Source: Solwaraspora sp. WMMD791 (lineage in GTDB: Bacteria > Actinomycetota > Actinomycetes > Mycobacteriales > Micromonosporaceae). Taken from it: a DNA stretch of 64,000 nucleotides. Shown one piece after another: positions 35,112 to 54,960 of this stretch. The stretch spans positions 2,542,001 to 2,606,000 of the forward strand of contig NZ_CP120737.1 of NCBI RefSeq assembly GCF_029581195.1, in the 5' to 3' direction. The stretch's first letter is position 1. The number at the start of each line of letters is the position of its first letter. The notes under the pieces are model-generated. The model saw only the letters and a list, made by a program, of their open reading frames with translations. It searched no databases and had not been told where the DNA came from. The position numbers and the translations under genes were made by a program.

Positions 35112-35112
35112 G

Positions 35113-36234: not shown

Positions 36235-36248
36235 GCTATGGGCTCCTA

Positions 36249-37760
36249 CTACTCGTACCGGACTGGTGGGGCCGGGGCGGCCACCGGCGCAGTGGCGGCC
36301 CGGCCGTGGGCGATGGCGCTGGCGGCGGCGGCGAAGGCGACGAAGTACCAGAGTGTCACCACGTTGGAGATGACGTTGGAGCCGAGGCTGACCGCGATGA
36401 ACGATACGGCGCAGCCGGCGAAGCCGACGGCGACGCCCTGTTCCAGGCTGCCCGGCGGGGCGCGACGCAGGGCGGTCCGGGCGGTGTGCAGCAGCAACAG
36501 CAGCATCGCCAGGTAGGCGAGCAGGCCGGCGAGGCCGGTTTCCACGTACGCCCGGAGCAGGTCGTTGTGCGGCTTCTTGGCCTGCGGTGTCTCGTGCTGG
36601 GTCATGTTCGGCCCGATGCCGGTGACCGGGTTGCGGTTGGCCAGCGGGATGATCTCCGCCCAGTAGCCCACCCGCCACTGCAGGGTGTTGCCGGTCGGTC
36701 CGCCGCCGGTCGGCCGGTCCTGGGCCAGCTGGGCGAACCGGTCACCCACCGACGGCAGCAGGCTGACCCCGGCGACCGCGACGACCAGCAGGGTCGCCAG
36801 CATCCGGCCGCTGCGGTGCAGCACCGCGACGACGATCAGGCCGAGCGCCGCGCCGAGGATCGCCGACCGGGTGTTGGTGAGCATCAGGAAGACCAGGGAG
36901 AGCCCGAGCAGTACGCCGAGCGCCAGCTGGGCCCGCCGCGCCAGGAACCGGTAGATCGCGAACCCGAAGATCACCAGGAACATCAGGTACCGACCGAAGG
37001 TGGTGGACTGGCTGAACGGCCCGCTGACCCGGATGAACTCACCTTTGACCTCGGACGGCACCTGCCCGAAGGCACTGGTCAGCACGGTGTAGAGCAGAGC
37101 CAGGGCCAGCGAGGCGTAGCAGGCGATCAGGATCCGCCGGATCGCCGCCCGGTCGGGCATCAACTGTTCGAGAACGACGAACATGACCACGACGGTCATG
37201 ATCCGGAGGGCTTCCAGCAGGCTCGGCGTCGGCCGGTGCGCGCCGACCGCGCTGACCAGTGCGGTCGCCCCGACGAGCAGCATCGCCCAGCCCAGCGGGG
37301 AGCCGTGCAGCCGGCCCCGGCGGCGCAGCTGGGCGGCGAGCCAGAGTCCGGCGGCGAGCAGGAACAGCACCGCCACCATCGTCGACGGGTCGGTCAGCCG
37401 GGATGCCTGCTCCGTGTCGGCCCGCCCGGCGGTGGGGCCGCTGAGCTTGACCACGTCCAGCAGGGGCCGTACGGCGAGCATCAGGATCACGTACCCGGAG
37501 AACCGGGTCATGGCCAGCACCCCGACGGCGACGCCGGCGGTGAGCGCCAGCGGCAGGACCACCCCGCGCCGGTCCCCGGCGGCGAGCGCCAGACCGGCGG
37601 CGACCGCGACGGCGGCGGCGGCCACCGCGGCGAGCAGGCTGAGCAGCCGGCCGGCCGGCCGCGCGGGCCGGCCATCATTGGGTACGGCGGAGCCGCCGGA
37701 CGCCATGGCGTCGTCCGGCGCCCGACCCGCTGGCCGGGGCTCGTGTCGTGTTGTGGTCAC
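36249..37760 (-). CDS. O-antigen ligase / Wzy-type polymerase family membrane protein
   Basis: The 503-residue protein has about 12 membrane helices and the large extracytoplasmic loop expected of Wzy_C / O-antigen ligase proteins, with NRNPVTGIGPNMT and HNDLLRAYVETGLAGLLAYL. Members polymerize repeat units or ligate glycans to an acceptor. As no other polymerase is seen, it is the likely polymerase of this locus. The GTG start follows a 109-base gap after the GT4 gene, the only sizeable gap in the series. Confidence 0.85.
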   Translation of the reverse strand: MTTTRHEPRPAGRAPDDAMASGGSAVPNDGRPARPAGRLLSLLAAVAAAAVAVAAGLALAAGDRRGVVLPLALTAGVAVGVLAMTRFSGYVILMLAVRPLLDVVKLSGPTAGRADTEQASRLTDPSTMVAVLFLLAAGLWLAAQLRRRGRLHGSPLGWAMLLVGATALVSAVGAHRPTPSLLEALRIMTVVVMFVVLEQLMPDRAAIRRILIACYASLALALLYTVLTSAFGQVPSEVKGEFIRVSGPFSQSTTFGRYLMFLVIFGFAIYRFLARRAQLALGVLLGLSLVFLMLTNTRSAILGAALGLIVVAVLHRSGRMLATLLVVAVAGVSLLPSVGDRFAQLAQDRPTGGGPTGNTLQWRVGYWAEIIPLANRNPVTGIGPNMTQHETPQAKKPHNDLLRAYVETGLAGLLAYLAMLLLLLHTARTALRRAPPGSLEQGVAVGFAGCAVSFIAVSLGSNVISNVVTLWYFVAFAAAASAIAHGRAATAPVAAPAPPVRYE

Positions 37761-37869
37761 CGCACGCCGATCCGCTGTTCCGTCGCCTGGAAACGCCCCC
37801 GTCAGGGTCGCCTGAAATCTAGTCGGATCCCCGATGAGGGAGTATGGGCCGACACGCCGGGTGTGCGCA

Positions 37870-39123
37870 TCAGCCGTCTGGTTCCGACCGAACCTTACGG
37901 CGGGGCCGGATCAGCGGTGTCCGACGCGGTTGCAGCAATTCGTGGTAGAGCGTCTCGAGTTCGGCGGCGGCGGCGTCCCAGGTGTACTCGCTGGTGACCC
38001 GGTCGCGCAGCGCCTGGGCTCCGGCCCGCTCGCCGGCCGGGTCGGCGACCAGTTGGCGCAGCGCCCGGACCAGGTCGTCGGGGTCGCCGTCGCGGAAGAT
38101 CCGGTGACCGGGACCGTCGGCGGTGAGCACCTCGACGTGCGGGGTGATGTCGCTGGCGATCACCGGCAGGCCGTACGAGGCGGCTTCCAGCAGGGTCAAC
38201 GGCAGCCCTTCCAGCCGGGACGGCTGGACGAACCCGGCGGCGTGCGAGTAGAGCTCGGCGAGCAGGTCACCGTAGGCGAACCCGGTGAACACGATCCGCG
38301 GGTCGTCGACCGCTTCGGCACGGACCCGGGCGACGAAGTCGTCGCTGAACGACGACCCGCCGACGATGGCCAGCCGGATGTCGGTGTCGACCTCGCGGAA
38401 CGCCCGGACCAGCAGGTCCGCCGACTTCTCCGGAACGAGCCGGCCGACCATCAGCAGGTACCGCCCGGGGGTGAGGCCGAACCGGGCACCGATGTGCCGG
38501 GCCGGCACCTGCCGGGGGGCGCTGACCCCGTTGGGGATGTAGTTGGCCAGGCTGCCGAACCGGGTCTGGTAGTGGCTGGCCAGCCCCCGGGAGACGGCGA
38601 CCCGGGCGTCGGGTACGTAGCCGGAGAGCCAGTGGGCGGTGCCGAGGACGGTCTGGGCGAGCCGGCTCCACTTGGCCCGCTGCTGGTCGAGACCGTGCAC
38701 GGTGAGGACGACCTTGCTGCGGGCGAGGTATCGCGGCAGCGGGGCGACCAGGCCGGGGCCGAGTCCGTGGTAGTGCACGATGTCGGGCCGTTCGCGCATG
38801 GCGGCGAGGGTGGAGGTGGTGGAGTGCACGATGGCGTCGAGGTGTTTGCTGGCCACCGTCCGTACCTGACGCAGCCGTACGCCCCGGTAGCGGTCCATCG
38901 GCACCGAGCCGTAGCTGGGCCGGCAGTAGACCGTGACGTCGTGCCCTCGGCCGGCCAGCCGGCTGGCGAGTTCTTCGACGTGCCGCTCGATCCCGCCGTA
39001 GGTCGCAGGCATCCCCTTCTGGCCGATCATGGCGATGCGCAGGGGCCGGTACCCCGTGCCGGTCTCGGCACCTTCCTGGTCGACCGGGTGGGAGTTCCCA
39101 GTCACCTGATGGGGGATGGCCAC
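37870..39123 (-). CDS. GT4-family glycosyltransferase (2)
   Basis: The 417-residue GT-B enzyme has RIAMIGQKGMPATYGGIERHV near residue 30, a pattern of rhamnosyl- and related transferases. IVHYHGLGPGLV follows, then the donor-site sequences LLMVGRLVPEKSADLLVRAF and PSRLEGLPLTLLEAASYGLPVI. The GTG start follows AGGAGG. It begins only 24 bases after the polyprenyl synthase stop, so it is probably cotranscribed with the Ebo-type genes. The sugar donor and acceptor are unknown. Confidence 0.87.
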   Translation of the reverse strand: MAIPHQVTGNSHPVDQEGAETGTGYRPLRIAMIGQKGMPATYGGIERHVEELASRLAGRGHDVTVYCRPSYGSVPMDRYRGVRLRQVRTVASKHLDAIVHSTTSTLAAMRERPDIVHYHGLGPGLVAPLPRYLARSKVVLTVHGLDQQRAKWSRLAQTVLGTAHWLSGYVPDARVAVSRGLASHYQTRFGSLANYIPNGVSAPRQVPARHIGARFGLTPGRYLLMVGRLVPEKSADLLVRAFREVDTDIRLAIVGGSSFSDDFVARVRAEAVDDPRIVFTGFAYGDLLAELYSHAAGFVQPSRLEGLPLTLLEAASYGLPVIASDITPHVEVLTADGPGHRIFRDGDPDDLVRALRQLVADPAGERAGAQALRDRVTSEYTWDAAAAELETLYHELLQPRRTPLIRPRRKVRSEPDG

Positions 39124-39147: not shown

Positions 39148-40284
39148 TCAGCGCTGCCGCTCAGCCACCGACTCAGCCAGGGCGGTCAATTCCGTACGCG
39201 TCTCGGGGGTCAACGACGCATCGACGAGAATGGTGACCGCTTCCTGGGTACGAATCCGGATCATCTGCTCGATCGCCTCGAGTGCTCCGGTGTCGACGAT
39301 GATCGTGCGCAGTTCGTCGGCCCCGGCGGCGTCCAGCTCCGGGTTGCCGAACAGTTCTCGCAGCCGCACGGTCTGACCACGGTCCGCCATGTTGCGGGCC
39401 AGCGCCATCATCACCGTCGACTTGCCCTCTCGCAGATCGTCGAGCACCGACTTGCCGGTGACCGTGGGATCGCCGAACACCCCGAGTACGTCGTCGCGGA
39501 GCTGAAAGGCATCGCCCAGTGGATCACCGAAGGCAGCGTACGCGGCCAGCAGCTCAGGTCCAGCCCCAGCCAGGGCAGCACCGATCTGCAATGGTCGGGT
39601 AACCGTGTATCTGGCGGCTTTCATCCGGATTACCGTCAGCGCACTGGCCACCGAACCGTCGCCGACACCGGAGACCAGGTCCAGGTACTGACCGGCGATC
39701 ACCTCGGTACGCATCCCGGCGAAGACCCCGTAGCCGCGCCGGATCTGCTCAGCGTCGAGGCCACACTCGTGGAACATCTGGTCCGCCCACGCGGCGCACA
39801 GGTCACCGCAGAGCAGCGCGGCACTGTGCCCGTACCGGCCGGAGTCGCCCCGCCAGGCCGACCGGGTGTGCAGGTCGGCGAAGACCCGGTGCACCGAGGG
39901 CTCGCCCCGACGGCGGTCACTGCCGTCCATGATGTCGTCGTGGATCAGCGCGAACGCGTGGAAGATCTCCAGCGCGGCGGCGGCCGCGACGATCTCCCGG
40001 CAGTCCGCGCCGCCGGCACCGCGCCATCCCCAGTAGCAGAACGTGGGCCGCAGTCGCTTACCGCCGACCAGGACGAACCGGCGCAGAATGTCGTACACCC
40101 CGCGCGGCGCCCCGTCCGGCCAGTGCGGGTCCTGCCGGTCCAGGAACGCCGTCAACTCCGCGTCGCACCGGGCCCGCAGCGAGCCGTCGACCACGGCCGG
40201 ACCCGGGCCGGCACTGTCAGCGGCGGCCGGACCCGGGCCGGCACCGTCAGCGGCGGCACCGGGGCGGGCCGGCGCGACGGTCAC
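39148..40284 (-). CDS. Polyprenyl diphosphate synthase
   Basis: The 378-residue all-helical isoprenyl synthase has GGKRLRPTF, the first aspartate-rich motif DDIMD and the second region LRDDVLGVFGD, which bind Mg2+ and the diphosphates. Small residues before the first motif (FALIHDDIMD) do not fix the chain length; C15 to C20 or longer is possible. The N-terminus has a repeated Gly/Pro/Ala stretch. The GTG overlaps the preceding phosphodiesterase stop by 4 bases (GTGA). It probably supplies the prenyl donor of the UbiA enzyme at 45353. Confidence 0.88.
   Translation of the reverse strand: MTVAPARPGAAADGAGPGPAAADSAGPGPAVVDGSLRARCDAELTAFLDRQDPHWPDGAPRGVYDILRRFVLVGGKRLRPTFCYWGWRGAGGADCREIVAAAAALEIFHAFALIHDDIMDGSDRRRGEPSVHRVFADLHTRSAWRGDSGRYGHSAALLCGDLCAAWADQMFHECGLDAEQIRRGYGVFAGMRTEVIAGQYLDLVSGVGDGSVASALTVIRMKAARYTVTRPLQIGAALAGAGPELLAAYAAFGDPLGDAFQLRDDVLGVFGDPTVTGKSVLDDLREGKSTVMMALARNMADRGQTVRLRELFGNPELDAAGADELRTIIVDTGALEAIEQMIRIRTQEAVTILVDASLTPETRTELTALAESVAERQR
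40195..40254. repeat. 30-bp tandem duplication in the polyprenyl synthase N-terminus
   Basis: Two 30-bp units (40195-40224, 40225-40254) differ at one base. They encode a doubled Ala/Gly/Pro-rich stretch ahead of the catalytic domain, probably by replication slippage. Confidence 0.8.
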
Positions 40285-41696
40285 CGGGCCACCTCCGTGG
40301 CCGGGGCACGCACCGCGTCGCCGAGGCCGGCCAACTCCAGCAGCAACGACTTGACCTCGGTGGCGGCGACACGGTCGCGGGCCGCCGCCGGTGACGAGCA
40401 GAGCAGCACCGGTCCGTCGGCGGGGTCGGCCGGCAGCCGGCCGTGCGAGCCACGGACCGCCCGCGCGCCGGCGTCCAGTCCGACCACGTTCATCGTGTAC
40501 CGCAGGCCGACCTTCTTGCGGGCCAGGGCGATCGCCGCCCGGGCCTTCGCCGCGCCCGGATTGGCCGGGTCGAACAGCAGCTCCGCCGGGTCGTAGCCGG
40601 GTTTGCGGTGGATCTCCACCAACCGGGCGAAGTCCGGAGCGGCCGCGTCGTCGCGCCAGTAGTAGTAGGTGAACCAGGCCTGCGGCTCGGCGACCAGCAC
40701 CAGTTCGCCGGAGCGCGGATGGTCCAGCCCGGCCGCCGCCTTGCCGTCGGCGTCGAGGACCTGCGCCACCCCGGGCAGGCCGGCGCAGAGCGCGGCCACC
40801 GCCGGCACGTCGGCCGGATCCCGGACGTACACGTGGGCGATCTGGTGGTCCGCGACGGCGAACGCCCGCGACGTCCACGGGTCGAGGTACTCCATGCCGG
40901 CCTGGGTGTAGACCCGCAGCAGACCTTCGGCACGCAGCAGCCGGTTGACGTGCACCGGCTGCGACACGTCGGTGATGCCGTACTCGGACAACGCCACCAC
41001 GGTCGTACCGCGCGCCGCCGCCGCGTCCAGCAGCGGGGCGAGCACCGCGTCGAGCTCGGCCGCCGCCCGCTGCGCGTGCGGACCGTCGCCGCCGTAACGT
41101 TGCAGGTCGTAGTCGAGATGCGGCAGGTACGCCAGAGTCAGGTCCGGCGAATGGTCGACCATGATCTGCCGGGTCGCCTTCGCGATCCACTCCGACGACA
41201 CCAGGCCGGCCCCGGCACCCCAGTAGGAGAACAGCGGAAAGGTGCCGAGCCGGCCGGTCAGCTCGTCGTGCAGCTCCGGCGGATCGGTGTAGCAGTCCGG
41301 ATCCTTGCGGCCGTCGGCGTGGTAGACCGGCCGGGGCGTGACCGTCCAGTTGACGTCCGCACCCATCGCGTACCACCAGCAGATGTTCGCCACCGTGTAG
41401 TCGGGGCGGACCCGGCGGGCGGCGTGCCACAGTTTCTCCCCGCCGACCAGCGCGTTGTGCTGGCGCCAGAGGAACACCTCGCCGAGGTCGCGGAAGTACC
41501 AGCCGTTGCCGACGATACCGTGCCCGGCCGGCGTCTCACCGGTGAGGAACGTCGACTGCACCGAGCAGGTGACCGCCGGCAGGACGGTGCCGAGTTCGGC
41601 CTGGAAACCGGTGTCGGCCAGCGCCGCCAGCCGGGGCATGTGGCGCAGCAGCCGGGGGGTCAGCCCGACCACGTCGAGCACGAGCAGCGGGTTCAT
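40281..41696 (-). CDS. eboF: EboF-like nucleotide pyrophosphatase/phosphodiesterase
   Basis: The 471-residue protein has the alkaline-phosphatase-fold phosphodiesterase pattern: VLDVVGLTPRLL with the metal Asp, the nucleophile region TCSVQSTFLTGETPAGHGI, HLDYDLQRYG with Asp/His ligands, SEYGITD and a late His (ADHQIAH). In Ebo clusters this gene is the type I phosphodiesterase. No signal peptide is visible, so the enzyme is cytosolic. The ATG overlaps the EboE-like stop by 4 bases. The substrate is unknown. Confidence 0.8.
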   Translation of the reverse strand: MNPLLVLDVVGLTPRLLRHMPRLAALADTGFQAELGTVLPAVTCSVQSTFLTGETPAGHGIVGNGWYFRDLGEVFLWRQHNALVGGEKLWHAARRVRPDYTVANICWWYAMGADVNWTVTPRPVYHADGRKDPDCYTDPPELHDELTGRLGTFPLFSYWGAGAGLVSSEWIAKATRQIMVDHSPDLTLAYLPHLDYDLQRYGGDGPHAQRAAAELDAVLAPLLDAAAARGTTVVALSEYGITDVSQPVHVNRLLRAEGLLRVYTQAGMEYLDPWTSRAFAVADHQIAHVYVRDPADVPAVAALCAGLPGVAQVLDADGKAAAGLDHPRSGELVLVAEPQAWFTYYYWRDDAAAPDFARLVEIHRKPGYDPAELLFDPANPGAAKARAAIALARKKVGLRYTMNVVGLDAGARAVRGSHGRLPADPADGPVLLCSSPAAARDRVAATEVKSLLLELAGLGDAVRAPATEVAR

Positions 41697-42859
41697 GCGG
41701 CCTCCGATCCGGCGGCGGTACGGGTGCGGGCGCTCAGGCCGAGCGCGACCAGTTCGTCGTGGGCCTGCGCGAGCTCGGCGGCGATCCCGGCGGCGAGCTG
41801 CGCCGGCCCGGTGGGGCGTTGCCCTTCCGGCAGCACCCCCCAGGTGTAGGTCTCCACGTCGAAGTGGTCGCAGTCGGTGCCGTCGACGATCGCGGCGAGA
41901 CCGGCCCGCAGCTGCGGCATCGTCGAGGTCAACGGCGCGACCGGGGCGGCGTGCAGCGGTACGTGGTAGTGGACCCGCCACGGGCCGGGCAGCCCGGCGT
42001 CGAGCGCCGCGTCGAGGTCGTCGGTCGCCCCGGCGGTACCCGACCGGGTCTGGTGCAGGAACCGTGGTTCGACGTACCCGGCGATCGCGGACCGGTCACG
42101 GACCGGGTCGGTGACCTCCAACGCGGCCGACACCTGGACCTTGACCACCGGCAGCCCGGCGGCCCGCAGCCGGCCGATCGCGGCGACCGGCTCCTCCCAG
42201 GCGCAGGCCAGGTGGGCCAGGTCGACGCAGACACCGAGCCGGTCGGTGTCGACGCCGGCCAGCAGCTGCGCGGCCTGGGCGGTGGTCTCCACGGCGCAGC
42301 CCGGTTCGGGTTCGAAGCCGACCCGGACGGTCCGGCCGGTGTCCCGTTCGACGTCGGCCAGGCCGGCGGCCAGCCGGTCCAGCATCCGGGCGCAGGCGTC
42401 GGCCCGGTCGCTGTCCCACGGCTCGCGCCAGGCCAACGGCAGGGTGGAGATGGAGCCACGCTCGGCGTCGTCGGGCATCAGGTCGGCGAGGATCCGGGCC
42501 AGCGCCAGGGTGTAGTCGAGCCGACGCGGGTCGGCCCAGTCCGGGTGGTAGACGGCGTGTTTGACCACCGGTGCCTGGAACGCCTCGTACGGGAATCCGT
42601 TGAGGGTGACCACTTCCAGGCCACGATCGGTGAGCGCGGCCCGCAGCCGGCGACGGGCGGCCGGGTCGGCGGCCAGCGCGGCGGCGGCCGGCGCGGCCAG
42701 CCACAGCCCGAGGCCGAGCGGGTCGGCGGCCAGCTGCGCGCGGACCGGCACCGCGTACGTGTCGAGCTGGCCGAGCACCCCGTCGAGGTCCTCGGCCGGG
42801 TGCACGTTGGTGCAGTAGCTGAGGTGGACCGTACGGCGGTGCCGGTCGGACAGCCGCAT
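41693..42859 (-). CDS. eboE: EboE-like TIM-barrel protein
   Basis: The 388-residue protein has the EboE hallmark LSYCTNVHPAEDLDGVL near the N-terminus. A xylose-isomerase-like barrel follows, with VTLNGFPYEAFQ, VGFEPEPGCAVE, VCVDLAHLACAWE and HYHVPLH, whose Glu, Asp and His residues would bind metal. EboE is required with its partners for the transport or maturation of certain metabolites in cyanobacteria and bacteroidetes; the reaction is unknown. The ATG overlaps the TatD-like gene's stop by one base. Confidence 0.82.
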   Translation of the reverse strand: MRLSDRHRRTVHLSYCTNVHPAEDLDGVLGQLDTYAVPVRAQLAADPLGLGLWLAAPAAAALAADPAARRRLRAALTDRGLEVVTLNGFPYEAFQAPVVKHAVYHPDWADPRRLDYTLALARILADLMPDDAERGSISTLPLAWREPWDSDRADACARMLDRLAAGLADVERDTGRTVRVGFEPEPGCAVETTAQAAQLLAGVDTDRLGVCVDLAHLACAWEEPVAAIGRLRAAGLPVVKVQVSAALEVTDPVRDRSAIAGYVEPRFLHQTRSGTAGATDDLDAALDAGLPGPWRVHYHVPLHAAPVAPLTSTMPQLRAGLAAIVDGTDCDHFDVETYTWGVLPEGQRPTGPAQLAAGIAAELAQAHDELVALGLSARTRTAAGSEAA

Positions 42860-43710
42860 CAGCCACCACCGCGCATGATCGAGCTGCCCTCGAAGGTCGG
42901 TGCGGGGGCCGCGACGTCGCTCAGGTCCAGCCGACCGGACTGTCCGTAGAACTCGACCGGGTTACGCCACAGCACCCGGTCGACGTCGTCGTCGCTGAAG
43001 CCGGCGGCCAGCATCGCCTCGCCGGTTCTCCGGGTCAGCAGCGGGTCGGACCGGCCCCAGTCGGCGGCCGAGTTGACCAGGATCCGCTCCGGGCCGTACT
43101 GCTTGAGGATCTCGACCATGCGCGGCGGGGACATCTTGGTCTCCGGATAGATCGAGAAGCCCATCCAGCAGCCGGACTCCTTGACCAGCCCGACCGTCAC
43201 CTCGTTGAGGTGGTCGACGACCACTCGGCCGGGGTCGATGCCGGACTCGGCGACCACCGCCAGGGTCCGTTCGGTGCCCCGGGCCTTGTCCCGGTGCGGG
43301 GTGTGCACCAGGGCCGGCAGCTCGTGCGCGCGGGCCAGCGCCAACTGGGCGGCGAACGCCTCGTCCTCGGCCGGCGTCATCGAGTCGTAGCCGATCTCGC
43401 CGACCGCCACCACCCCGTCCTTGACCAGGTAGCGGGGCAGGACGTCGAGCACGCCGGTGCAGCGGGGGTCGTTGGCCTCCTTGGGGTTCAACGCCAGCGT
43501 GGCGAAGTGCCGGATGCCGAACTGACTGGCCCGGTACGGTTCCCAGCCCAGCAGGGAGTCGAAGTAGTCGACGAAGGAGCCGACGTTGGTGCGCGGCTGG
43601 CCGAGCCAGAACGCCGGTTCGACCAGGGCACGGACCCCGGCGTCGGCCATCGCCTGGTAGTCGTCGGTGGTCCGCGAGGTCATGTGGATGTGCGGGTCGA
43701 AGATGCGCAC
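42859..43710 (-). CDS. eboB: EboB-like TatD-family metal hydrolase
   Basis: The 283-residue amidohydrolase-fold protein starts with the metal motif FDPHIHMTS and has GEIGYD, HTPHRDKARG, VVDHLNE and NSAADWGRSDP, which supply the His and Asp ligands of a TatD-like site. It corresponds to the TatD-family member of Ebo clusters. The GTG or ATG start directly abuts the EboA-like stop. It is cytosolic by lack of signal. The substrate is unknown. Confidence 0.82.
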   Translation of the reverse strand: MRIFDPHIHMTSRTTDDYQAMADAGVRALVEPAFWLGQPRTNVGSFVDYFDSLLGWEPYRASQFGIRHFATLALNPKEANDPRCTGVLDVLPRYLVKDGVVAVGEIGYDSMTPAEDEAFAAQLALARAHELPALVHTPHRDKARGTERTLAVVAESGIDPGRVVVDHLNEVTVGLVKESGCWMGFSIYPETKMSPPRMVEILKQYGPERILVNSAADWGRSDPLLTRRTGEAMLAAGFSDDDVDRVLWRNPVEFYGQSGRLDLSDVAAPAPTFEGSSIMRGGG

Positions 43711-44424
43711 TCACCCCTCCTGTCGGGTCGTGGTGGACACGGGTCCGGTGGTGGTGACGTCCGCCGGGTCGGCGGCGGTCGGCGTCGCCGCGCGCAGCCG
43801 CCGCAGCAGGGCGAGCGCGTCGTCGGGCAGGGTCCGGCCGGCGGCCACCCGCTCGTCGTGCAGCCCGGTCAGCATGATCAGCAACTCGTCGTCGGCGCGG
43901 GTGTCGAGGTCGTGCACGGCGGCCAGCGGCACCCCGGTGAAGACGCACTTGAGCACCGCCTGCCGCCACGCCGGCTGGTCCAGGTGGCGGGCGTAGTCGC
44001 CGAGCGCGGCGGCCAGCAGCCGGGTGTCGTTGGTGCGGATCGCGTCGTGCAGCAGCGGCACCGCCCGGTCACCGATCGGCAGCAACGGCAGCGCGGTGAG
44101 CACCGCGCGGCGTTCGGCGGCGTCTCCGTACTGGTAGCAGTCGGTCACCGCGGCCGCCAGCGTCCCCGCGTCGGTGACGGTGGCCAGATCGGCGAGCAGC
44201 ACCGCCCGGGCGGCGACGTCGGCGCTCCAGCCGGGCGCGTCGGCCAGGTCGGCACGCCCACAGCGACGACCGACTGCGGCGAACAGCGTCGGCAGGGCGG
44301 CCGGGTCGGCGACGATCCGGGTCCGCGCCTGCGCGAGCCAGTCCGGATCGGGTACGTCGTGCAGCGCGGCGACGAGTCGCGCCACGACGGCGGTGGGGTC
44401 GGCGGTCGCGGTGGGCTGGTTCAC
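43711..44424 (-). CDS. eboA: EboA-domain protein
   Basis: The 237-residue helical protein has the EboA core: GRADLADAPGWSADVAARAV, CYQYGDAAERRAVLTALPLL, DAIRTNDTRLLAAALGDYAR and the strongly conserved WRQAVLKCVFTGVPLAAVHD. Its biochemical role is unknown. The GTG start overlaps the previous gene's stop by 4 bases. The Ala/Thr-rich C-terminus is not conserved. Confidence 0.82.
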   Translation of the reverse strand: MNQPTATADPTAVVARLVAALHDVPDPDWLAQARTRIVADPAALPTLFAAVGRRCGRADLADAPGWSADVAARAVLLADLATVTDAGTLAAAVTDCYQYGDAAERRAVLTALPLLPIGDRAVPLLHDAIRTNDTRLLAAALGDYARHLDQPAWRQAVLKCVFTGVPLAAVHDLDTRADDELLIMLTGLHDERVAAGRTLPDDALALLRRLRAATPTAADPADVTTTGPVSTTTRQEG

Positions 44425-45356
44425 GACTTGCCTCCTTCGTCACGGGTGCCGGTGCCGGCTTCTCCGGCGGTGCCGCCTGCCGCGCGGGTGCCGGTGTCGG
44501 CAAGGGCGCGGCGCTGCGCGGCACGGAGAAATTCGATGGAGTGGGCGGCGACCGCCGGGGCGGCGTGTGAGTGCCGGGGCAGCTCGACGGCGACCAGGCC
44601 GCGGTAGCCGGCCGCGCCGAGGGCGGCCAGTACCGGCGGAAAGTCGATCTCCCCGGTGCCGAACTCGAGATGCTCGTGTACGCCCCGGCGCATGTCGTCG
44701 ATCTGGACGTTGACCAGGTGTGCGGCCACCTCGGTGACGCACTGCGGCACCGGCAGCGGCTCCAGGCAGCGGCAGTGCCCGATGTCGAGGGTGATGCCGA
44801 ACCGGTCCGGGTCGCCGAGTGCCGTACGCAGCCGCCGCCAGTCGGCGATGTCGGCCACCAGCATGCCGGGTTCGGGCTCGAATCCGAGGGTGACACCGGC
44901 GGTGTCGGCGGCGTCGACCACGGTGGCGCAGCCGTCGACCAGCCGTTGCCAGGCGGTGGCGTCGTCGACCTCGGCCGGGCGCACCCCGGACCAGAAGGAG
45001 ACCGCCTCCGCGCCGAGGTCGGCGCCGATCGCCACGGCCCGGCGCAGAAAGTCGATCCGGTGCGCGGCCGCGTCGTGCAGCAGGGTCGGGGCGTGCTTGT
45101 GCCACGGGTCGAGCAGGTACCGCGCGCCGGTCTCGATCACCACCGCGAGGCCCAGGTCACGCAGCCGGTCGGCGACCCGGATCACCGTGGCGGGCAGGTC
45201 GGCGGCGTACGGGTCGAGGTGGTCGTGGTCGAGGGTGAGGGCAACTCCCTGGTAGCCGAGATCGGCGAGCAGGGCCAACGCGTCGGTGAGCCGGTGGTTG
45301 GCGAAACCGTTGGTGCCGTAACCGAAGCGCAGCCCGGCCAGCGTGTCGGCGCTCAT
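44421..45356 (-). CDS. Sugar phosphate isomerase/epimerase-type TIM-barrel protein
   Basis: The 311-residue protein has the barrel motifs GYQGVALTLDHDHLDP, LAVVIETGARYLLDPW, AEAVSFWSGV, LGFEPEPGMLVAD, GITLDIGHCRC, HLVNVQIDDMRRG and LVAVELPRHSH, with a likely Glu/Asp/His/Glu metal site. It is distinct from the EboE-like protein three genes downstream. Next to an inositol-phosphate synthase it could act on an inositol or sugar phosphate derivative. The ATG overlaps the UbiA stop by 4 bases. Confidence 0.82.
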   Translation of the reverse strand: MSADTLAGLRFGYGTNGFANHRLTDALALLADLGYQGVALTLDHDHLDPYAADLPATVIRVADRLRDLGLAVVIETGARYLLDPWHKHAPTLLHDAAAHRIDFLRRAVAIGADLGAEAVSFWSGVRPAEVDDATAWQRLVDGCATVVDAADTAGVTLGFEPEPGMLVADIADWRRLRTALGDPDRFGITLDIGHCRCLEPLPVPQCVTEVAAHLVNVQIDDMRRGVHEHLEFGTGEIDFPPVLAALGAAGYRGLVAVELPRHSHAAPAVAAHSIEFLRAAQRRALADTGTRAAGGTAGEAGTGTRDEGGKS

Positions 45357-46306
45357 GTCGGCGACACCAGGCGGGCCAGCCGCCGGCCCAACGGCGCGGC
45401 GGCGGCCACGGCGAGCCCGACCAGAGTCGCGGCGCCGGTGGCGGTCGCCGGCGACCGGGCGGTGAGCGCGCCCTGCAGCGCGGGCAGCCCGACGATGCCG
45501 GCGCCGACGGCGGCCTGCACCTGATGCGGTGCGGGATCGCGGGCCACCGCCACCTGCGCGGCACCGTAACGGGCCGCGTACCAGCCGGCGAGGCCGGCGG
45601 TGACCGCCGCCCGCCACCAGCGGCCGGCGCCGGCCGATGCGGACCCTGCCGACGTGGACCCTGGCGCTGCGGACCCTGGCGCTGCGGGTCGCCGGGCCGC
45701 CGGTGCGGCGGCGGCCACGGCGATCGCGGCGGTGCCGGCCAGGGTCGCCGCCGGCAACCGGGGGTCGGCCCCGCTGACCTCGCTGCGGGACAGCTCGGTG
45801 ACGGTGTAGGTGTGCGCGGCGACCGCCAGCGCGGCGGGCAGCGCCGGCCGCAGTCGGCCGGACCCGGCGGCCCCCAGCAGCACGTCCAGGCCCCGGCAGG
45901 TCGCCATCACCGCCGGCCCGGCAGCGGTGTTCTTGGCCCACAGGTCGTACGCCCAGACGGCGGCGGTCAACGGCACCCCGACGGCGAGTGCCCGACGGCC
46001 GCCGACGGCGGCGGTCACCGCGAGGCTGGCGGTGGTGAGCCCGGCCGCGACGGCGAGCGCGGTGCCCGGGGCGACCCGGCCGGACGGGATCGGCCGGGTC
46101 GGCCGTTCGACCGCGTCGAGCTCCCGGTCGGCCCAGTCGTTGGCGGCCATGCCCGCCCAGTAGAGGCAGACCGACGCGCCGGCCAGGCCGGCGGTACGCG
46201 GGCCGAGTCCACCGGCGGCGGCCGCGCCGGCCACCACGTCGCCCGGTACGGACAGCGCCGCCGGCGCCCGGACCAGCTCGGCGAGGTCGCGCCACCGTAC
46301 GGACAT
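45353..46306 (-). CDS. eboC: UbiA-family prenyltransferase (EboC-like)
   Basis: The 317-residue membrane protein has about eight helices. It has the first aspartate-rich motif NDWADRELDAVERPTRPIPS, which binds the prenyl diphosphate through Mg2+. The second motif region is less clear (YDLWAKNT). UbiA enzymes attach a prenyl chain to an aromatic or polar acceptor in the membrane. The loop near residues 225-245 contains a 15-bp tandem duplication. The ATG overlaps the inositol-phosphate synthase stop (TGATG), so the two are tightly coupled. Confidence 0.82.
   Translation of the reverse strand: MSVRWRDLAELVRAPAALSVPGDVVAGAAAAGGLGPRTAGLAGASVCLYWAGMAANDWADRELDAVERPTRPIPSGRVAPGTALAVAAGLTTASLAVTAAVGGRRALAVGVPLTAAVWAYDLWAKNTAAGPAVMATCRGLDVLLGAAGSGRLRPALPAALAVAAHTYTVTELSRSEVSGADPRLPAATLAGTAAIAVAAAAPAARRPAAPGSAAPGSTSAGSASAGAGRWWRAAVTAGLAGWYAARYGAAQVAVARDPAPHQVQAAVGAGIVGLPALQGALTARSPATATGAATLVGLAVAAAAPLGRRLARLVSPT
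45656..45685. repeat. 15-bp tandem duplication in the UbiA gene
   Basis: GGACCCTGGCGCTGC is present twice in tandem (45656-45670 and 45671-45685). It lies in the segment for an Ala/Ser/Gly/Pro-rich loop between helices. Confidence 0.8.
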
Positions 46307-47469
46307 CAGCGTGCCCCGCCGGCGTCGGTCGCCCGGTCCTGCAGGCCGGCGACGAACTCGACGAGCACCCGCCACTGATCGCCCAGAGCGTGCGGGCCGT
46401 CGCCGATCGGATCCTTGAAGAAGAAGCCCAGCTCGGGCAGGGGTCCGCTGCGGCCGGCATGCTGCGCCGCAGCGGTCAGCCGGGCCAGGTCCAACACCAG
46501 TGGGGCCGCCAGCGCCGAGTCACAACCGTGCCAGGTGAACTCCATCCGCATGGCGGTGCCGAGGAAACCGGAGAAGGTGATCAGGTCCCAGGCGGTCTTG
46601 AAGTCGCCGATGTCGTCGACGTACTCGATGCGGGTGTGGCCCTGCGGCTGGTAGCCGAGGATTTCGGCGAGCACCCGCTGCTTGCTGGCCGACTTGGCCG
46701 CGTTGGCCGCCGGCTCAGCCAGGTTGGCGCCGTCGCCGCCGCCGAGCAGGTTGCTGCCGGACCAGCTGCGTACCTGCAGGTTGCGCAGCGCGAACATCGG
46801 CGCGAGCACCGCCTTGACCAGGGTCTCGCCGGTCTTGCCGTCGTGTCCGGCGTACGGTGCCGACCGTTGCCGGGCCAGTTCGTCGAGGGCGGGCAACCGG
46901 GCCCCGGTCGACGGGGTGAAGTCGACGTAGCCGCAGCCGGCCTGCAGGGCCGCGTACGCGGCGAGCGCGCTCGGCGGCAGCACCGGTTGCGACCCGGCCA
47001 GCGCCTCGACCAGTGCGGCGAGGCGCTGGTGTGCCGGGTGCGGTGGCGGTGCCGGTTCGGTGGTGGATACGTTGACGACGACGACTTGGTCGAGCTGGTG
47101 CCGGTCACGGAAGGCGGCCAGGTCGGCGGTGATGGCCGCCGCCGTCTCGGCCTGGGTGGCCAGCGCCGGCAGCGGTCGGATCTGTGGTTCGATCCCGGCC
47201 AGTTCGGCGTGCAGCGCGGTGACCAGCCGGCTCGGGACGACTCCGGCGCTGGCCAGCGCGTCGGCCTTCTTGACCAGTGGCGTCGCGGCGATGTCGTGGC
47301 CGCCGAAGACGAGGTCGGCGAAGCCCGGCAGGGCCGGGCCGCGCAGTGGCGGCAACTCGGTGACGCACCCGGTGGCGTCCGCCAGCCCGGCGCGCAGTGC
47401 CAACGCGCCGACGATGCTGGTGACCGCGACCGAGCCGCGGGCTCCGATCAGCCAGACTCCGGTTCGCAT
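46306..47469 (-). CDS. myo-Inositol-phosphate synthase-type sugar-phosphate cyclase
   Basis: The 387-residue protein begins with the NAD site GVWLIGARGSVAVTS. Its core has SNLLGGGDGANLAEP, the equivalent of the GNNDGxNL block of eukaryote-type synthases, then KSASKQRVLAEILGY, IEYVDDIGDFKTAWDLI and FTWHGCDSALAAPLVLDLAR. It would cyclize glucose 6-phosphate, or another sugar phosphate, to an inositol phosphate. GGAGG lies before the ATG; an upstream TTG (47481) is less likely. It heads the Ebo-type operon, where the EboD dehydroquinate-synthase-like cyclase is otherwise expected. Confidence 0.85.
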   Translation of the reverse strand: MRTGVWLIGARGSVAVTSIVGALALRAGLADATGCVTELPPLRGPALPGFADLVFGGHDIAATPLVKKADALASAGVVPSRLVTALHAELAGIEPQIRPLPALATQAETAAAITADLAAFRDRHQLDQVVVVNVSTTEPAPPPHPAHQRLAALVEALAGSQPVLPPSALAAYAALQAGCGYVDFTPSTGARLPALDELARQRSAPYAGHDGKTGETLVKAVLAPMFALRNLQVRSWSGSNLLGGGDGANLAEPAANAAKSASKQRVLAEILGYQPQGHTRIEYVDDIGDFKTAWDLITFSGFLGTAMRMEFTWHGCDSALAAPLVLDLARLTAAAQHAGRSGPLPELGFFFKDPIGDGPHALGDQWRVLVEFVAGLQDRATDAGGAR

Positions 47470-47838: not shown

Positions 47839-50800
47839 TCAGCTCGCCGGAACGAACTGCACCCAGTTGAGGTTGAACATGTTGAACGTCGGTCCACCTT
47901 CGACCGAACGGAACACCAGGTAGAGACGGTGTGTCCCGGCCGGGTGGTCGACTGCCACGTCGGTGCTGGCCCAGGCGTTGGTGCCGGTGGTGGCGTTCAG
48001 CGTGGTGCTGGCCACCAGCGGTCCGTCCGGTGCGTCGACGCGCAGTTCGACGACCGCCCGCGGGGTGCCCGCGGTCGCCGTCGAGCCGCCGGCGTGGCGC
48101 AGCGTCACCGTGTCGATCCCACCGAGGTTGATCGGGTCGAACGCGATGTGGCCGCCGTTGGTGATTCCGGATACCTGCTGGCCGCCACCGGTGTCGGAGG
48201 TGTTGGACACCGAGACGCCCTGCTTGACCGGGGCGAACTCGGCCTGCTGCTGGTACAGCTGGATGGTGGCCTGGCCGACCGCGGTCAGCGCCGGTTGGCC
48301 ACCCGCGCCCAGGTCGGTGTAGCTGGCACTGATCCCGCCGAACAGGTAGCTGCCGGCGTGGTCGGCACCGTCGGCCGGGGTGGGCAGGTTACCGGTGCAG
48401 CCCGTGGTGGTGGTCTGCGGGTGACCGTGCTCGTCGTGGCCGAGGACGAAGGTGACCTCGAGCCGGCTGCAGTCGATGGTGCCGTCCTCGGGGTCGGTCA
48501 CGGTGACGGTGTACGGCACCGTGTCGCCCCAGTTGAAGAAGGAACCGGACAGCGGAGTGTTCACCACGACCGTCGGCGCGGTGTTGCCGACCGTGATGGT
48601 CCGGCTCAACGTCGCCTGCTTGCCGTTGGTGTCGGTCACCGTCAGCTGGGCGTAGTACACGCCGTTGCTGGTGTAGGTGTACGACGCGTCCGGGTCGGTG
48701 GAGTCGGTCGTGCCGTCCCCGTTGAAGTCCCAGGCGTAGCTGATGCTGGCGCCGACCTCGGGGGTACGCGAGCCCTCGCTGGAGAACTGCACGGTCAGCG
48801 GGGCCTGGCCGGAGGTGGCCGACGCGGTGAGTTCGGCGACCGGGCCGCGGGTGCCCTTGACGTAGCGGATCTGGTAGAGCGACGCGTCCGGGTTGGCCCG
48901 GAAGAAGCCGTCACCGTAGTCCAGCACGTAGAGGGTGCCGTCCGGGCCGATCTCCATGTCCATCGGGTTGTCGAAGACGAACGTGCTGGGCAGGAAGCGC
49001 TCGACGCCGAAGAACTTGCCGCTGCCGTTGGTCCGCATGGTGAACATCCGGTCCCGGCTGAACTCGCCGAAGAAGACGGCGTCGTTGTAGTACTCCGGCA
49101 GCTTGTACTCGGAGTCGAGTGAGTCGTCGAACTTGTAGATCGGGCCGCCCATCGGGCCGACGCCGCCGGTGCCGATCGCGGGCCACTGGAAGTCGCAGGT
49201 GCCGGCCGGGTCGACCAGGTAGCTGTCCCGACAGGTGGTGGTCGCGTTGAAGGTGTACCAGAACTGTGGCTGCTCGACCGGCGGCAACAGGCTGCGGCCG
49301 GTGTTGCGGGGCGAGTCGTTGATCGGCGCCGCGCAGTTGAACGGCTCACCGGAGGTCTGGGTGGTGAAGTCGTAGTCGATGTACGGCAGGGTCGGCGAGT
49401 AGCAGTACGGCCAGCCGTAGTTGCCCGCCTTGTTGGTGGCGAACCATCGACCGGTGCCCTCCGGGCCCCGGGTGGCGCTCGGGTTACGCGAGTCCGGCGA
49501 GTAGTCACCGATGTAGACGAAGCCGCGTGAGTCAACGTCGAACCGGAACGGGTTGCGCAGACCCATCAGGAAGATCTCCGGGCGGGTCTTGTCGTCCAGG
49601 TCCTCCGACTCCGGGAACAGGTTGCCAGCGGGGATGCTGTAGCTGCCGTCCGCCTTGAGCTTGATCCGCAGCACCTTGCCACGCAGGTCGTTGGTGTTGG
49701 CCGAGGAGCGGGCGGCGTCGTACGCCGGCCCGCGGCTCGGTGACCGGTTGATCGGCGTGTAGCCGTCCGAGCCGCTGGCGTTGGTGTCGTCACCGGTGAC
49801 GAGGTAGAGCAGGCCCTTTCCGTCGAACTTGACCTCGCCGGCGACGTGGCAGCAGGCGCCCCGGTCGGTGTCGACCTTGAGGATCTCCTGCTCGGTCGAC
49901 AGGTCCAGGTGCGGCGTCGGTTCTTCGACGAACTTGACCCGCGACAGCAGGTTGTAGCCCTTGAATGCGTCCCAGACGCTCGGGTCGTCGCTGTTGGCCG
50001 GCGCGTCGCCCTCGTTGACCCCGGGGGTGGCCGGGTTGTCGACGGGGGTGTCCAGCGGCGGCGCGTAGTAGAGGTAGACCCACTTGTTCTCGGCGAAGTT
50101 CGGGTCCAGGGTGACCGACTGCAGGCCGTCCTCGTCGTGCTGGTAGACGGGGACGGTGGTGATCACCGGGCTGGCGCCGGAGGCGGGGTCGTAGAGGCGG
50201 ATCTCGCCAGCGCGGGTGTTGTGCAGCACCCGGCCGTCGGGCAGCACCGCGAGGCTCATCGGCTCACCGGGCTGGTCGTTGAGGACGACCCGCTCGTAGT
50301 TGGACTCGACGGTGGCGCCGCAGTCGCCTTCGGCCGCGCCAGCGGCCCACTGGATGCCGCCGAGCAGGTGCTTGCGGACGGCACCGAGGGTGAAGGTGTC
50401 CGGCGACGAGCCGAGACCGGTGTACCAGGACCGGCCGCCCTGGTAGTCCTGACACCAGGAGACCGGGTGGTCGTAGCCCATGCTGCTGCCGCTGATCGTG
50501 TCGGTGTTCACGGTGGCGAGCACGTGCTGGATGCCCCGAACGTTCTCGGTGAAGTTCAGGTAGTTCTCGTCGATGGTCAGCTCGCGCGAGATGGTGCTGG
50601 TCGACGGGTGGTAACGGTCCGCTACGTCGATCACGCCGGCGCCGCTGGCGGTGGTGCCGGTCGAGGTGGTGCCGACCAGGCCGCGGTAGAACGCCCAGTC
50701 GGGTTCGGCGTCGACGGCGGCGTGTACGCCGATGTAGCCGTTACCGGCCTTGACGTAGTCCTCGAAGGCTTCCTGCTGGTGGTCGTCGAGCACGTCACCG

Positions 50801-51096
50801 GTGTTGTTCAGGAAGACCACGGCGCGGTAGTTCGCCAGGTTCTCCGGAGTGAACACGGTGCTGTTGCGCGACACGTCGATGGTGAAGCCGTTGTTGTTGC
50901 CGAGGGTGCGGATGGCGTTGACGCCCTTGGCGGTGGACGGGTGGGCGACCCCTTCGGTGTTGGTGAACACCAGCACCTGGTAGCCCTCGTCGTGGTCGTG
51001 GCCGTCGTGTGCGACCGCTGGCGCGGTGGCGATCATGGGCGCGGTGAGTGCCGCGCCCGCGGCGACGGCAAGCCATCGCCGGGTGGATCTGTTCAT
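47839..51096 (-). CDS. Secreted ThuA / PQQ-type sugar dehydrogenase / PKD multidomain protein
   Basis: The 1085-residue precursor has a signal peptide ending near APAVA (about residue 30). A ThuA domain follows (about 40-260: VLVFTNTEGVAHPST, YIGVHAAVDAEPDW). Next is a glucose/sorbosone dehydrogenase-like beta-propeller (about 265-760: SLAVLPDGRVL, HDEDGLQSVTLDPNF, FLMGLRNPFRFDVDSRG, YVLDYGDGFF). A PKD domain (about 770-860: PLTVQFSSEGSRTP) and a C-terminal carbohydrate-binding-like module (about 960-1085) close it. The start follows CGGAGGAACGACAG. It probably binds and oxidizes a polysaccharide-derived sugar outside the cell. Confidence 0.84.
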   Translation of the reverse strand: MNRSTRRWLAVAAGAALTAPMIATAPAVAHDGHDHDEGYQVLVFTNTEGVAHPSTAKGVNAIRTLGNNNGFTIDVSRNSTVFTPENLANYRAVVFLNNTGDVLDDHQQEAFEDYVKAGNGYIGVHAAVDAEPDWAFYRGLVGTTSTGTTASGAGVIDVADRYHPSTSTISRELTIDENYLNFTENVRGIQHVLATVNTDTISGSSMGYDHPVSWCQDYQGGRSWYTGLGSSPDTFTLGAVRKHLLGGIQWAAGAAEGDCGATVESNYERVVLNDQPGEPMSLAVLPDGRVLHNTRAGEIRLYDPASGASPVITTVPVYQHDEDGLQSVTLDPNFAENKWVYLYYAPPLDTPVDNPATPGVNEGDAPANSDDPSVWDAFKGYNLLSRVKFVEEPTPHLDLSTEQEILKVDTDRGACCHVAGEVKFDGKGLLYLVTGDDTNASGSDGYTPINRSPSRGPAYDAARSSANTNDLRGKVLRIKLKADGSYSIPAGNLFPESEDLDDKTRPEIFLMGLRNPFRFDVDSRGFVYIGDYSPDSRNPSATRGPEGTGRWFATNKAGNYGWPYCYSPTLPYIDYDFTTQTSGEPFNCAAPINDSPRNTGRSLLPPVEQPQFWYTFNATTTCRDSYLVDPAGTCDFQWPAIGTGGVGPMGGPIYKFDDSLDSEYKLPEYYNDAVFFGEFSRDRMFTMRTNGSGKFFGVERFLPSTFVFDNPMDMEIGPDGTLYVLDYGDGFFRANPDASLYQIRYVKGTRGPVAELTASATSGQAPLTVQFSSEGSRTPEVGASISYAWDFNGDGTTDSTDPDASYTYTSNGVYYAQLTVTDTNGKQATLSRTITVGNTAPTVVVNTPLSGSFFNWGDTVPYTVTVTDPEDGTIDCSRLEVTFVLGHDEHGHPQTTTTGCTGNLPTPADGADHAGSYLFGGISASYTDLGAGGQPALTAVGQATIQLYQQQAEFAPVKQGVSVSNTSDTGGGQQVSGITNGGHIAFDPINLGGIDTVTLRHAGGSTATAGTPRAVVELRVDAPDGPLVASTTLNATTGTNAWASTDVAVDHPAGTHRLYLVFRSVEGGPTFNMFNLNWVQFVPAS

Positions 51097-51234
51097 CTGT
51101 CGTTCCTCCGGGGGTTCGGGAGGCAAGGCCTCACCGGGGGGCACTAATTCCGTTGTGGACGGACAGTTACGGTTGGTGCCTCACCCCTGGCGCGGTGCCA
51201 CGTCCGCCAGAGTCTGTTGCGTACGCCGTGCTGG

Positions 51235-52600: not shown

Positions 52601-52620
52601 GGTAAGCCTCCCCGAAAAGG

Positions 52621-53706: not shown

Positions 53707-53825
53707 GACGACCTCCTGGATCGGAAGGTGGAGGGGTTATCGGGGTGTGCGGATCCCGGCGGCCGTCACAGGCGACGGTCACCGTGTTCGGTGGTGGATC
53801 GGAAGGTGGCGTTACCCGGGCAGGG

Positions 53826-54905: not shown

Positions 54906-54960
54906 AGTCCTACTCCTTCGCTCACCGGCTGGCCGCTGGCCAACTGGTCGGGTCGCCCGG

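Follow-up and report, generated by a model that had tools for sequence, protein, structure and literature searches.

A MIPS-type version of the Ebo gene cluster in Solwaraspora and other prokaryotes

A 64-kb stretch of the genome of Solwaraspora sp. WMMD791 (GCF_029581195.1, NZ_CP120737.1:2,542,001-2,606,000, forward strand; hereafter the window, to which positions refer) carries an Ebo-like gene cluster headed by a cyclase of the myo-inositol phosphate synthase (MIPS) family. The host is placed by GTDB in Actinomycetota; Actinomycetes; Mycobacteriales; Micromonosporaceae. The cluster is a MIPS-type version of the known Ebo set, conserved and probably cross-domain. Its gene content is conserved, the classical cyclase EboD is absent, a second TIM barrel (TIM2) is associated with the MIPS, and the MIPS proteins share a lineage. 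Judging from these sequences, we lean towards the hypothesis that an archaeal-like MIPS together with TIM2 replaces the sedoheptulose-phosphate-type cyclase EboD in a variant of the Ebo pathway, and that the resulting cyclitol, or its phosphate, would be prenylated by the UbiA protein.

As described in the relevant parts of Yurchenko et al. 2016 (PMC5133447) and Klicki et al. 2018 (PMC6282210), the classical ebo operon EboABCDEF shares with the window cluster the EboA domain, EboB, EboE, EboF, a UbiA protein and a tight operon structure, as well as a predicted cyclitol-plus-isoprenoid logic. In contrast to it, the window cluster lacks EboD, contains MIPS and TIM2, has a UbiA that passes the SCO3242-family cut-off and not that of EboC, and has a short-chain prenyl diphosphate synthase (PPS) attached. 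As EboD is missing, the cluster is filed here as an Ebo-like variant rather than a strictly defined ebo operon.

Gene content and the cyclase at the operon head

The cluster comprises eight minus-strand genes running from 47469 down to 39148 in the order MIPS, UbiA, TIM2, EboA, EboB, EboE, EboF and PPS (Table 1), position 47469 being the ATG start of the MIPS-type cyclase and thus the operon head. The distances between consecutive genes are -1 nt (MIPS/UbiA), -4 nt (UbiA/TIM2), -4 nt (TIM2/EboA), 0 nt (EboA/EboB), -1 nt (EboB/EboE), -4 nt (EboE/EboF) and -4 nt (EboF/PPS); since neighbouring genes either abut or overlap by 1-4 nt at every one of the seven junctions, a single transcript is very likely. 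The original prediction, made from the letters of the window, had proposed these eight genes with the same identities and coordinates, and both family models and the junction check agree with it. Single genes of the cluster were already named in the NCBI annotation.

The search for EboD relied on the NCBIfam model NF004852 (cut-off 333) and on tblastn with four query proteins from Ketogulonicigenium, Deinococcus, Azospirillum and Roseivivax plasmids, two of which were scored with the model and pass it (545 and 571 bits). None of the four queries matched the 64-kb window at E up to 1e-3. The host genome contains two genes of the dehydroquinate synthase family, about 1.7 and 1.0 Mb away, which score 215 and 176 bits with NF004852 and remain under the cut-off. 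The predicted lack of EboD therefore holds for the window, and an EboD elsewhere in the genome finds no support. No protein exceeded the NF004852 cut-off in 296 Actinomycetota genomes, 283 of which have weaker, AroB-like matches, or in 80 further EboE-bearing genomes of the host order. As the order-wide EboD scan was run at a strict threshold at which its control genomes gave no match, a separate positive control was performed, in which all six EboD-type genomes scored above 550 bits. One 35-bit EboD match inside the eboE of locus L024 was taken as spurious.

The closest solved relative of the window MIPS is Archaeoglobus fulgidus Ino1 (1u1i, 236 bits), an archaeal-type myo-inositol-1-phosphate synthase. 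The positions aligned with its K274, K278, K306, K367, N255, D225, D261 and D332 are invariant in a 14-row alignment of Ebo-linked relatives, and presumably have the catalytic roles of the Archaeoglobus residues. In the alignments with 3qvw and 3qvx, alanine stands where the lysines counted as 278 and 367 are expected. The window protein is thus a family member with both domains and with the Archaeoglobus catalytic residues that were compared kept, for which conversion of glucose 6-phosphate is predicted. Unlike Archaeoglobus Ino1, the Ebo MIPS constitute a lineage of their own that is tied to ebo genes and, in the host, coexists with a canonical Ino1: the actinomycete Ino1 model TIGR03450 (cut-off 638) gives 22 bits for the window MIPS and 653 bits for a gene elsewhere in the host genome. 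The notion of a genome with a single MIPS, derived from a lone PF07994 match, was dropped once this Ino1-specific model found the second gene. Because a separate canonical Ino1 exists, the window cyclase looks dedicated to its cluster.

To assess conservation, a sample of 296 Actinomycetota genomes including the host was analyzed, with Ebo-type MIPS defined as proteins scoring at least 300 bits against the window protein. EboE was found in 18 genomes (17 over the cut-off) and Ebo-type MIPS in 17, every one located 4.3-5.2 kb from EboE; no other MIPS in the sample scores above 226 bits. The MIPS at the operon head and its pairing with ebo genes in actinomycetes that lack EboD, both expected from the single window, are accordingly found in 17 of the 18 EboE genomes, with EboD in 0 of 296. 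The order MIPS-UbiA-TIM2-EboA-EboB-EboE-EboF recurs in 16 of 18 loci from 17 other Actinomycetota genomes, among them L027, which has no UbiA match; the shared gene set and order exceed chance. Within the host order, EboE passes its cut-off in 81 of 298 genomes. Of the 80 genomes other than the host, 73 have MIPS at a distance of 4.2-5.3 kb from EboE and 5 have it on another contig; the remaining 2 have no MIPS at E 1e-20 and only a solo EboE within the 19.5 kb fetched. Four plasmid records from Streptomyces or Nonomuraea (L044, L045, L049, L051) likewise carry the MIPS-type set.

These counts bear on the simplest objection, namely that the cyclase only feeds bulk inositol into phosphatidylinositol and mycothiol and that its link to ebo is incidental, an outcome the original prediction had itself set against its reading. 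Such a role would fit the inositol-phosphate synthase family, and in one genome (G237) the cluster MIPS is the only MIPS match; however, a canonical Ino1 is encoded elsewhere in the host genome, a second match to the MIPS protein (E up to 0.001) is present in 16 of the 17 Ebo-MIPS genomes (with five second places among the matches listed), and all 17 MIPS lie beside EboE. Bulk supply is largely rejected on account of the separate canonical Ino1, and we regard it as highly improbable.

Table 1. Genes of the window cluster and two adjoining non-core genes
Feature	Position	Strand	Evidence
MIPS-type cyclase (inositol-3-phosphate synthase family)	46306..47469	-	PF07994 160 bits, PF01658 107 bits
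UbiA-superfamily prenyltransferase, SCO3242 family, EboC position	45353..46306	-	NF045897 361 bits (cut-off 260)
TIM2, xylose-isomerase-like TIM barrel	44421..45356	-	PF01261 127 bits
EboA domain protein	43711..44424	-	NF035938 152 bits (cut-off 50)
EboB, TatD-like metal-dependent hydrolase	42859..43710	-	PF01026 over cut-off; EboB tree
EboE TIM barrel	41693..42859	-	NF035939 412 bits (cut-off 250)
EboF, type I phosphodiesterase/nucleotide pyrophosphatase family	40281..41696	-	PF01663 214 bits; EboF trees
PPS, short-chain prenyl diphosphate synthase (probably C15-C20)	39148..40284	-	PF00348 155 bits
GT4 glycosyltransferase, non-core, possible transcript tail	37870..39123	-	Start 24 nt past PPS
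ThuA + glucose/sorbosone-dehydrogenase (GSDH) + PKD + CBM6 protein, non-core	47839..51144	-	Signal-peptide-like start by eye

Window EboA reaches 71 bits with a narrower EboA-family model and stays under its cut-off of 320, window EboB could be placed in one tree with EboB of EboD-type clusters, and the EboE profile gave no match to solved structures up to E 0.01.

Distribution beyond actinomycetes and probable exchange of the cyclase

A GTDB scan was carried out with a mixed EboE alignment headed by Gemmatirosa; its best 80 loci form a biased sample, mostly from other phyla. Genes were detected by tblastn (E up to 1e-6), and a locus was counted as a cluster when it contained at least two of EboA, EboB, UbiA and EboF. 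By this definition 61 of the best 80 loci are clusters, of which 57 contain EboD and none contains MIPS or TIM2; the remaining 19 have a truncated or near-solo EboE, six of them with EboD. The MIPS-type set does, however, extend beyond actinomycetes, the group in which the original prediction had suggested looking for it and in which it is indeed conserved. A Gemmatirosa kalamazoonensis plasmid carries EboE, EboB, EboF, UbiA, MIPS and TIM2, and three haloarchaeal plasmids (Halobaculum, Natronococcus and Halocatena; L139, L140 and L141) carry EboB, UbiA, MIPS, EboF and two TIM2-like barrels. No EboD was detected in the whole Gemmatirosa plasmid record or in the haloarchaeal plasmid records, the search covering plasmids and not chromosomes.

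TIM2 is present in the actinomycete, Gemmatirosa and haloarchaeal MIPS-type clusters, and in loci without other ebo genes it adjoins MIPS (L145) or stands a few genes apart from it (L143, L144). TIM2 accompanies MIPS rather than ebo as such and is a core part of the variant; the second TIM barrel of the original prediction is real, with the correction that it goes with MIPS and gave no match in any of the 61 scan clusters. Its solved relatives include MJ1311, UlaE, Art22, IolI and IolE, and its invariant residues are E160/E162, D191, H194, H227, H229 and E258, which, going by the superfamily, we take to bind metal. TIM2 and EboA share one open reading frame in L039, and reading frames of 442-491 aa in L049, L164, L170 and L173 suggest the same arrangement. 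Yurchenko et al. likewise describe EboA homologues of Actinobacteria that can be fused to a xylose-isomerase-like protein (PMC5133447). As to the loci without other ebo genes, L143 (5797-12423, Hymenobacter) and L144 (5638-12825, Roseomonas) are plasmid regions encoding MIPS, a Gfo/Idh/MocA oxidoreductase, YcaO and a TIM2-like isomerase, and L145, a contig of genome G244, contains a MIPS-TIM2 pair of a non-ebo lineage with a PIG-L family gene nearby.

The relationships of the MIPS proteins were examined in a tree of 48 rows, from which two short L167 fragments, canonical Ino1 and the Archaeoglobus sequence were left out. All 31 MIPS taken from genomes or plasmids that bear ebo genes, namely 27 from actinomycetes, 3 from haloarchaea and 1 from Gemmatirosa, fall on one side of a 100/100 branch, together with one haloarchaeal MIPS without ebo neighbours; the 31 include the MIPS of G498, encoded on a contig other than that of its cluster. 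The 27 actinomycete proteins in turn occupy one side of a 100/99 branch. The Ebo MIPS therefore represent a shared lineage.

Quick trees were built from 97 of 97 EboB rows and 98 of 102 EboF rows kept by length; L025 and L041, which have no linked MIPS, were labelled MIPS-type, and 7 (EboB) and 6 (EboF) cyclase-less rows were left uncounted. The MIPS/EboD label changes three times on each quick tree, and starred branches force two changes for EboB and three for EboF; the EboB tree came with a warning of long branches meeting. Careful trees of EboF and EboE were then focused on a chosen subset of 41 rows each. In these, Gemmatirosa EboF shares a starred four-row set with three EboD-type rows (99/95), its nearest rows coming from Gemmatimonadota, Rokubacteria and Myxococcota, and Gemmatirosa EboE shares a starred three-row set with two EboD-type rows (99/92). 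In the focused trees two changes are required by the starred branches, and a single MIPS-type clade appears in 0 of 200 bootstrap trees for either protein. Because Gemmatirosa EboE and EboF nest among EboD-type rows, these sequence relationships indicate that the cyclase was probably swapped more than once.

Predicted prenylation of a cyclitol and competing explanations

The window UbiA scores 109 bits with the classical EboC model NF035940, under its cut-off of 250, and passes the SCO3242-family model NF045897; the EboC of the EboD-type cluster L042 likewise falls under a cut-off, in its case under both. The window protein aligns with EboD-type EboC at 27-32% identity, and the motif NDxxDxxxD is invariant in 13 UbiA rows, EboD-type EboC included. 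The closest solved structure to the UbiA set is the archaeal digeranylgeranylglyceryl phosphate (DGGGP) synthase 6m31 (60 bits over 132 profile positions), ahead of chlorophyll synthase (41 bits) and 4-hydroxybenzoate octaprenyltransferase (26 bits). DGGGP synthase transfers a prenyl group to a polyol-phosphate lipid; its likeness to Ebo UbiA is that of the closest solved structure, overall similarity is low, and the substrate of Ebo UbiA is a prediction only. A further likeness, by annotation and model name, is to Streptomyces coelicolor SCO3242/SCO3243, which are annotated as a putative transferase and a myo-inositol phosphate synthase, NF045897 being named after the former. Both genes are listed among the CDA cluster genes in a transcriptome table that draws no link to ebo (PMC3610822).

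The best solved relatives of the PPS are a farnesyl diphosphate (FPP) synthase (8f8f, 240 bits) and a geranylgeranyl diphosphate (GGPP) synthase (3lk5, 239 bits); as the two score equally, a C15-C20 chain is likely. Its distribution across the order was counted from the 37 best matches (at least 418 bits). In this count, 35 of the 40 host-family ebo genomes have a close relative at 2.5-2.8 kb from EboE, and none of the 40 other ebo genomes of the order has one within 10 kb of it; more distant prenyl synthases adjoin the cluster in L024 (35% identity) and L040 (41%). The idea that the PPS defines the variant was dropped after this count. The built-in prenyl synthase of the original prediction is thus present in the operon and yet not core: it is a family-level addition that backs prenyl chemistry.

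We propose the following route, because a family that makes inositol phosphate fills the cyclase slot, UbiA is nearest to DGGGP synthase and one lineage has added a prenyl synthase. MIPS, in view of its family and intact catalytic residues, would convert glucose 6-phosphate to myo-inositol phosphate, and TIM2, with EboE and EboB, may rearrange or trim the cyclitol. The membrane protein UbiA, similar to DGGGP synthase of archaeal ether-lipid synthesis, could then prenylate the cyclitol or its phosphate at a hydroxyl with a C15-C20 chain, the chain being supplied in the host family by the local prenyl synthase. EboF would presumably take off a phosphate, and the amphiphilic cyclitol lipid so formed may help to move a metabolite across the membrane, by analogy with what is proposed for cyanobacterial Ebo.

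The first step could differ if the MIPS-like enzyme made another cyclitol, either a C7 compound from sedoheptulose 7-phosphate or a five-membered ring, so that the chemistry would stay near that of classical Ebo and only the fold would have changed. The enzyme does fill the slot of one thought to use sedoheptulose 7-phosphate (according to PMC5133447), the MIPS fold also includes the five-membered-cyclitol-phosphate synthase 6k96, and the Ebo MIPS form their own lineage. The window MIPS is nevertheless far nearer to Archaeoglobus Ino1 than to 6k96 (236 against 51 bits), and the lysines matching the catalytic ones of Ino1 are invariant in the 14 rows, a residue comparison made with Ino1 only. 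We consider a different cyclitol unlikely, though the likeliest of the alternatives.

The third step could instead concern an aromatic or quinoline acceptor prenylated by UbiA, in which case the cyclitol would be a separate building block or the precursor of the aromatic, and the product a prenylated aromatic. Precedent for this comes from the reported farnesylation of 8-hydroxyquinoline-2-carboxylic acid (8-HQA) and of quinaldic acid by Ubi-297 (PMC9235831), and an Orf2-type aromatic prenyltransferase adjoins the S. camelliae cluster. Among solved structures, however, the UbiA set is nearest to DGGGP synthase, and no aromatic-acceptor gene is found among the genes common to the loci compared. 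An aromatic product appears less plausible than a different cyclitol.

Several observations weigh against the prenylated-cyclitol hypothesis and the cyclase replacement on which it builds. Ubi-297 is itself the EboC of an EboD-type cluster, and its farnesylation of 8-HQA needs no cyclitol (PMC9235831). EboD-type cyclases are described as releasing phosphate (PMC5133447), which MIPS retains; additional steps would therefore be needed to make the two heads equivalent in their chemistry. The EboD-type Ketogulonicigenium cluster (L042) is adjoined by a sugar-phosphate isomerase/epimerase gene, although no TIM2 match was obtained there. The association of ebo with MIPS also has exceptions. G244, one of the 18 EboE genomes, has an eroded cluster (L041) with a gapped EboE, a UbiA fragment and no linked MIPS; a second ebo copy in G123 (L025) lacks MIPS; the only MIPS of G498 is on a different contig from its cluster; and, in the order sample, G320, G337, G345, G375 and G464 have further MIPS of 233-409 bits away from EboE, which shows that this MIPS type also occurs outside ebo loci. 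In L025 (13912-16808), an FAD oxidoreductase gene and an inositol-monophosphatase-family gene stand where MIPS would be expected, the latter being a point in favour of the hypothesis. The haloarchaeal clusters gave no EboA match, and L139 and L141 have no TIM barrel over the EboE cut-off. Finally, when a single MIPS-type clade was put to the approximately unbiased (AU) test, the outcome was borderline for EboF (p 0.038) and lacked significance for EboE (p 0.17), for which reason repeated swapping is graded only as probable. Taken as a whole, the original prediction stands as regards the absence of EboD, the MIPS head and the conservation, and needs amending as regards the prenyl synthase, which is not core, the second TIM barrel, which is, and the range of the variant, which reaches beyond actinomycetes.

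Neighbouring genes and implications for the Ebo pathway

Upstream of the operon, a gene combining ThuA and GSDH domains hints at action outside the cell. In 13 of the 30 actinomycete loci, the stretch retrieved contains matches to both ThuA and GSDH, the latter a pyrroloquinoline quinone (PQQ)-type sugar dehydrogenase (weak and far apart in L035 and L036), and 2 more contain GSDH alone, giving GSDH matches in 15 of 30 (window 47839-51144 and L027, L029-L036, L038, L040, L165, L166, L170, L172). The 30 loci include two each from G123, G498 and G395. ThuA gave no match in a set of 84 loci drawn from the EboE scan plus four EboD plasmids, a set in which GSDH gave 9 weak matches of 48-71 bits, nor in 17 loci of other MIPS or in 8 solo-EboE loci, three of which are also among the 84. 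Because the gene does not always lie on the MIPS side of the cluster, the stretches are of unequal length and the sets cover different taxa, this association is a lead only. In S. camelliae, a gene annotated as ScyD/ScyE-family is located upstream of MIPS, for which Pfam gives a weak NHL repeat only; for ScyE of Nostoc, exported scytonemin monomer is the proposed substrate (PMC6282210).

Directly downstream (33471-39123), Wzx-like, Wzy/O-antigen-ligase-like and GT4 genes, conserved in L172, suggest an exopolysaccharide locus adjoining the cluster; among the loci checked, the GT4 gene next to PPS has a counterpart only in L172. Farther upstream (51383-59325), genes for Gfo/Idh/MocA, sugar-binding, permease, ROK and TIM-barrel proteins are found, some with close relatives in L034, L158, L166 and L172. 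Elsewhere, the MIPS-type cluster of one Streptomyces plasmid (L045, 1-17161) adjoins FAD monooxygenase, methyltransferase, amidase, glutamine synthetase and purB genes, neighbours that we take to resemble those of diazo or aromatic natural-product clusters. A solo eboE occurs within an apparent type II polyketide cluster of Streptomyces sp. NBC_01244 (L050, 7974-9152), and further solo EboE genes in L162, L163, L168 and L169.

Nostoc deletion mutants indicate that ebo genes move a metabolite out of the cytoplasm and are needed for scytonemin export, and an ebo-containing region is linked to protection from nematodes in Pseudomonas (both as given in PMC6282210). Saccharomonospora clusters have been counted under ebo (PMC9235831). 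A pairing of ebo with an inositol-phosphate synthase was not found in the open-licence literature of PubMed Central, subscription journals and preprints being outside this scope, and the word inositol is absent from the main text of the ebo papers PMC5133447, PMC6282210 and PMC9235831.

More tentatively, Ebo may be a single cross-domain route to a cyclitol-prenyl membrane cofactor for export, with interchangeable heads, EboD (sedoheptulose-phosphate) and MIPS with TIM2 (glucose-phosphate), that have repeatedly taken each other's place (in Actinomycetota, in one lineage of Gemmatimonadota and perhaps in haloarchaea); the secreted ThuA/PQQ-type dehydrogenase of actinomycetes might then act on the exported compound. 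We see this broader scheme as possible rather than probable. The replacement of one cyclase type by another argues for a cyclitol head as the actual requirement of the pathway, and thereby gives independent backing to the isoprenoid-cyclitol proposal put forward in 2016 (PMC5133447). Since the family of the ring-making enzyme is biochemically well understood, the variant offers a concrete handle on the Ebo product: it indicates inositol-type chemistry for that product and makes the product question directly testable.

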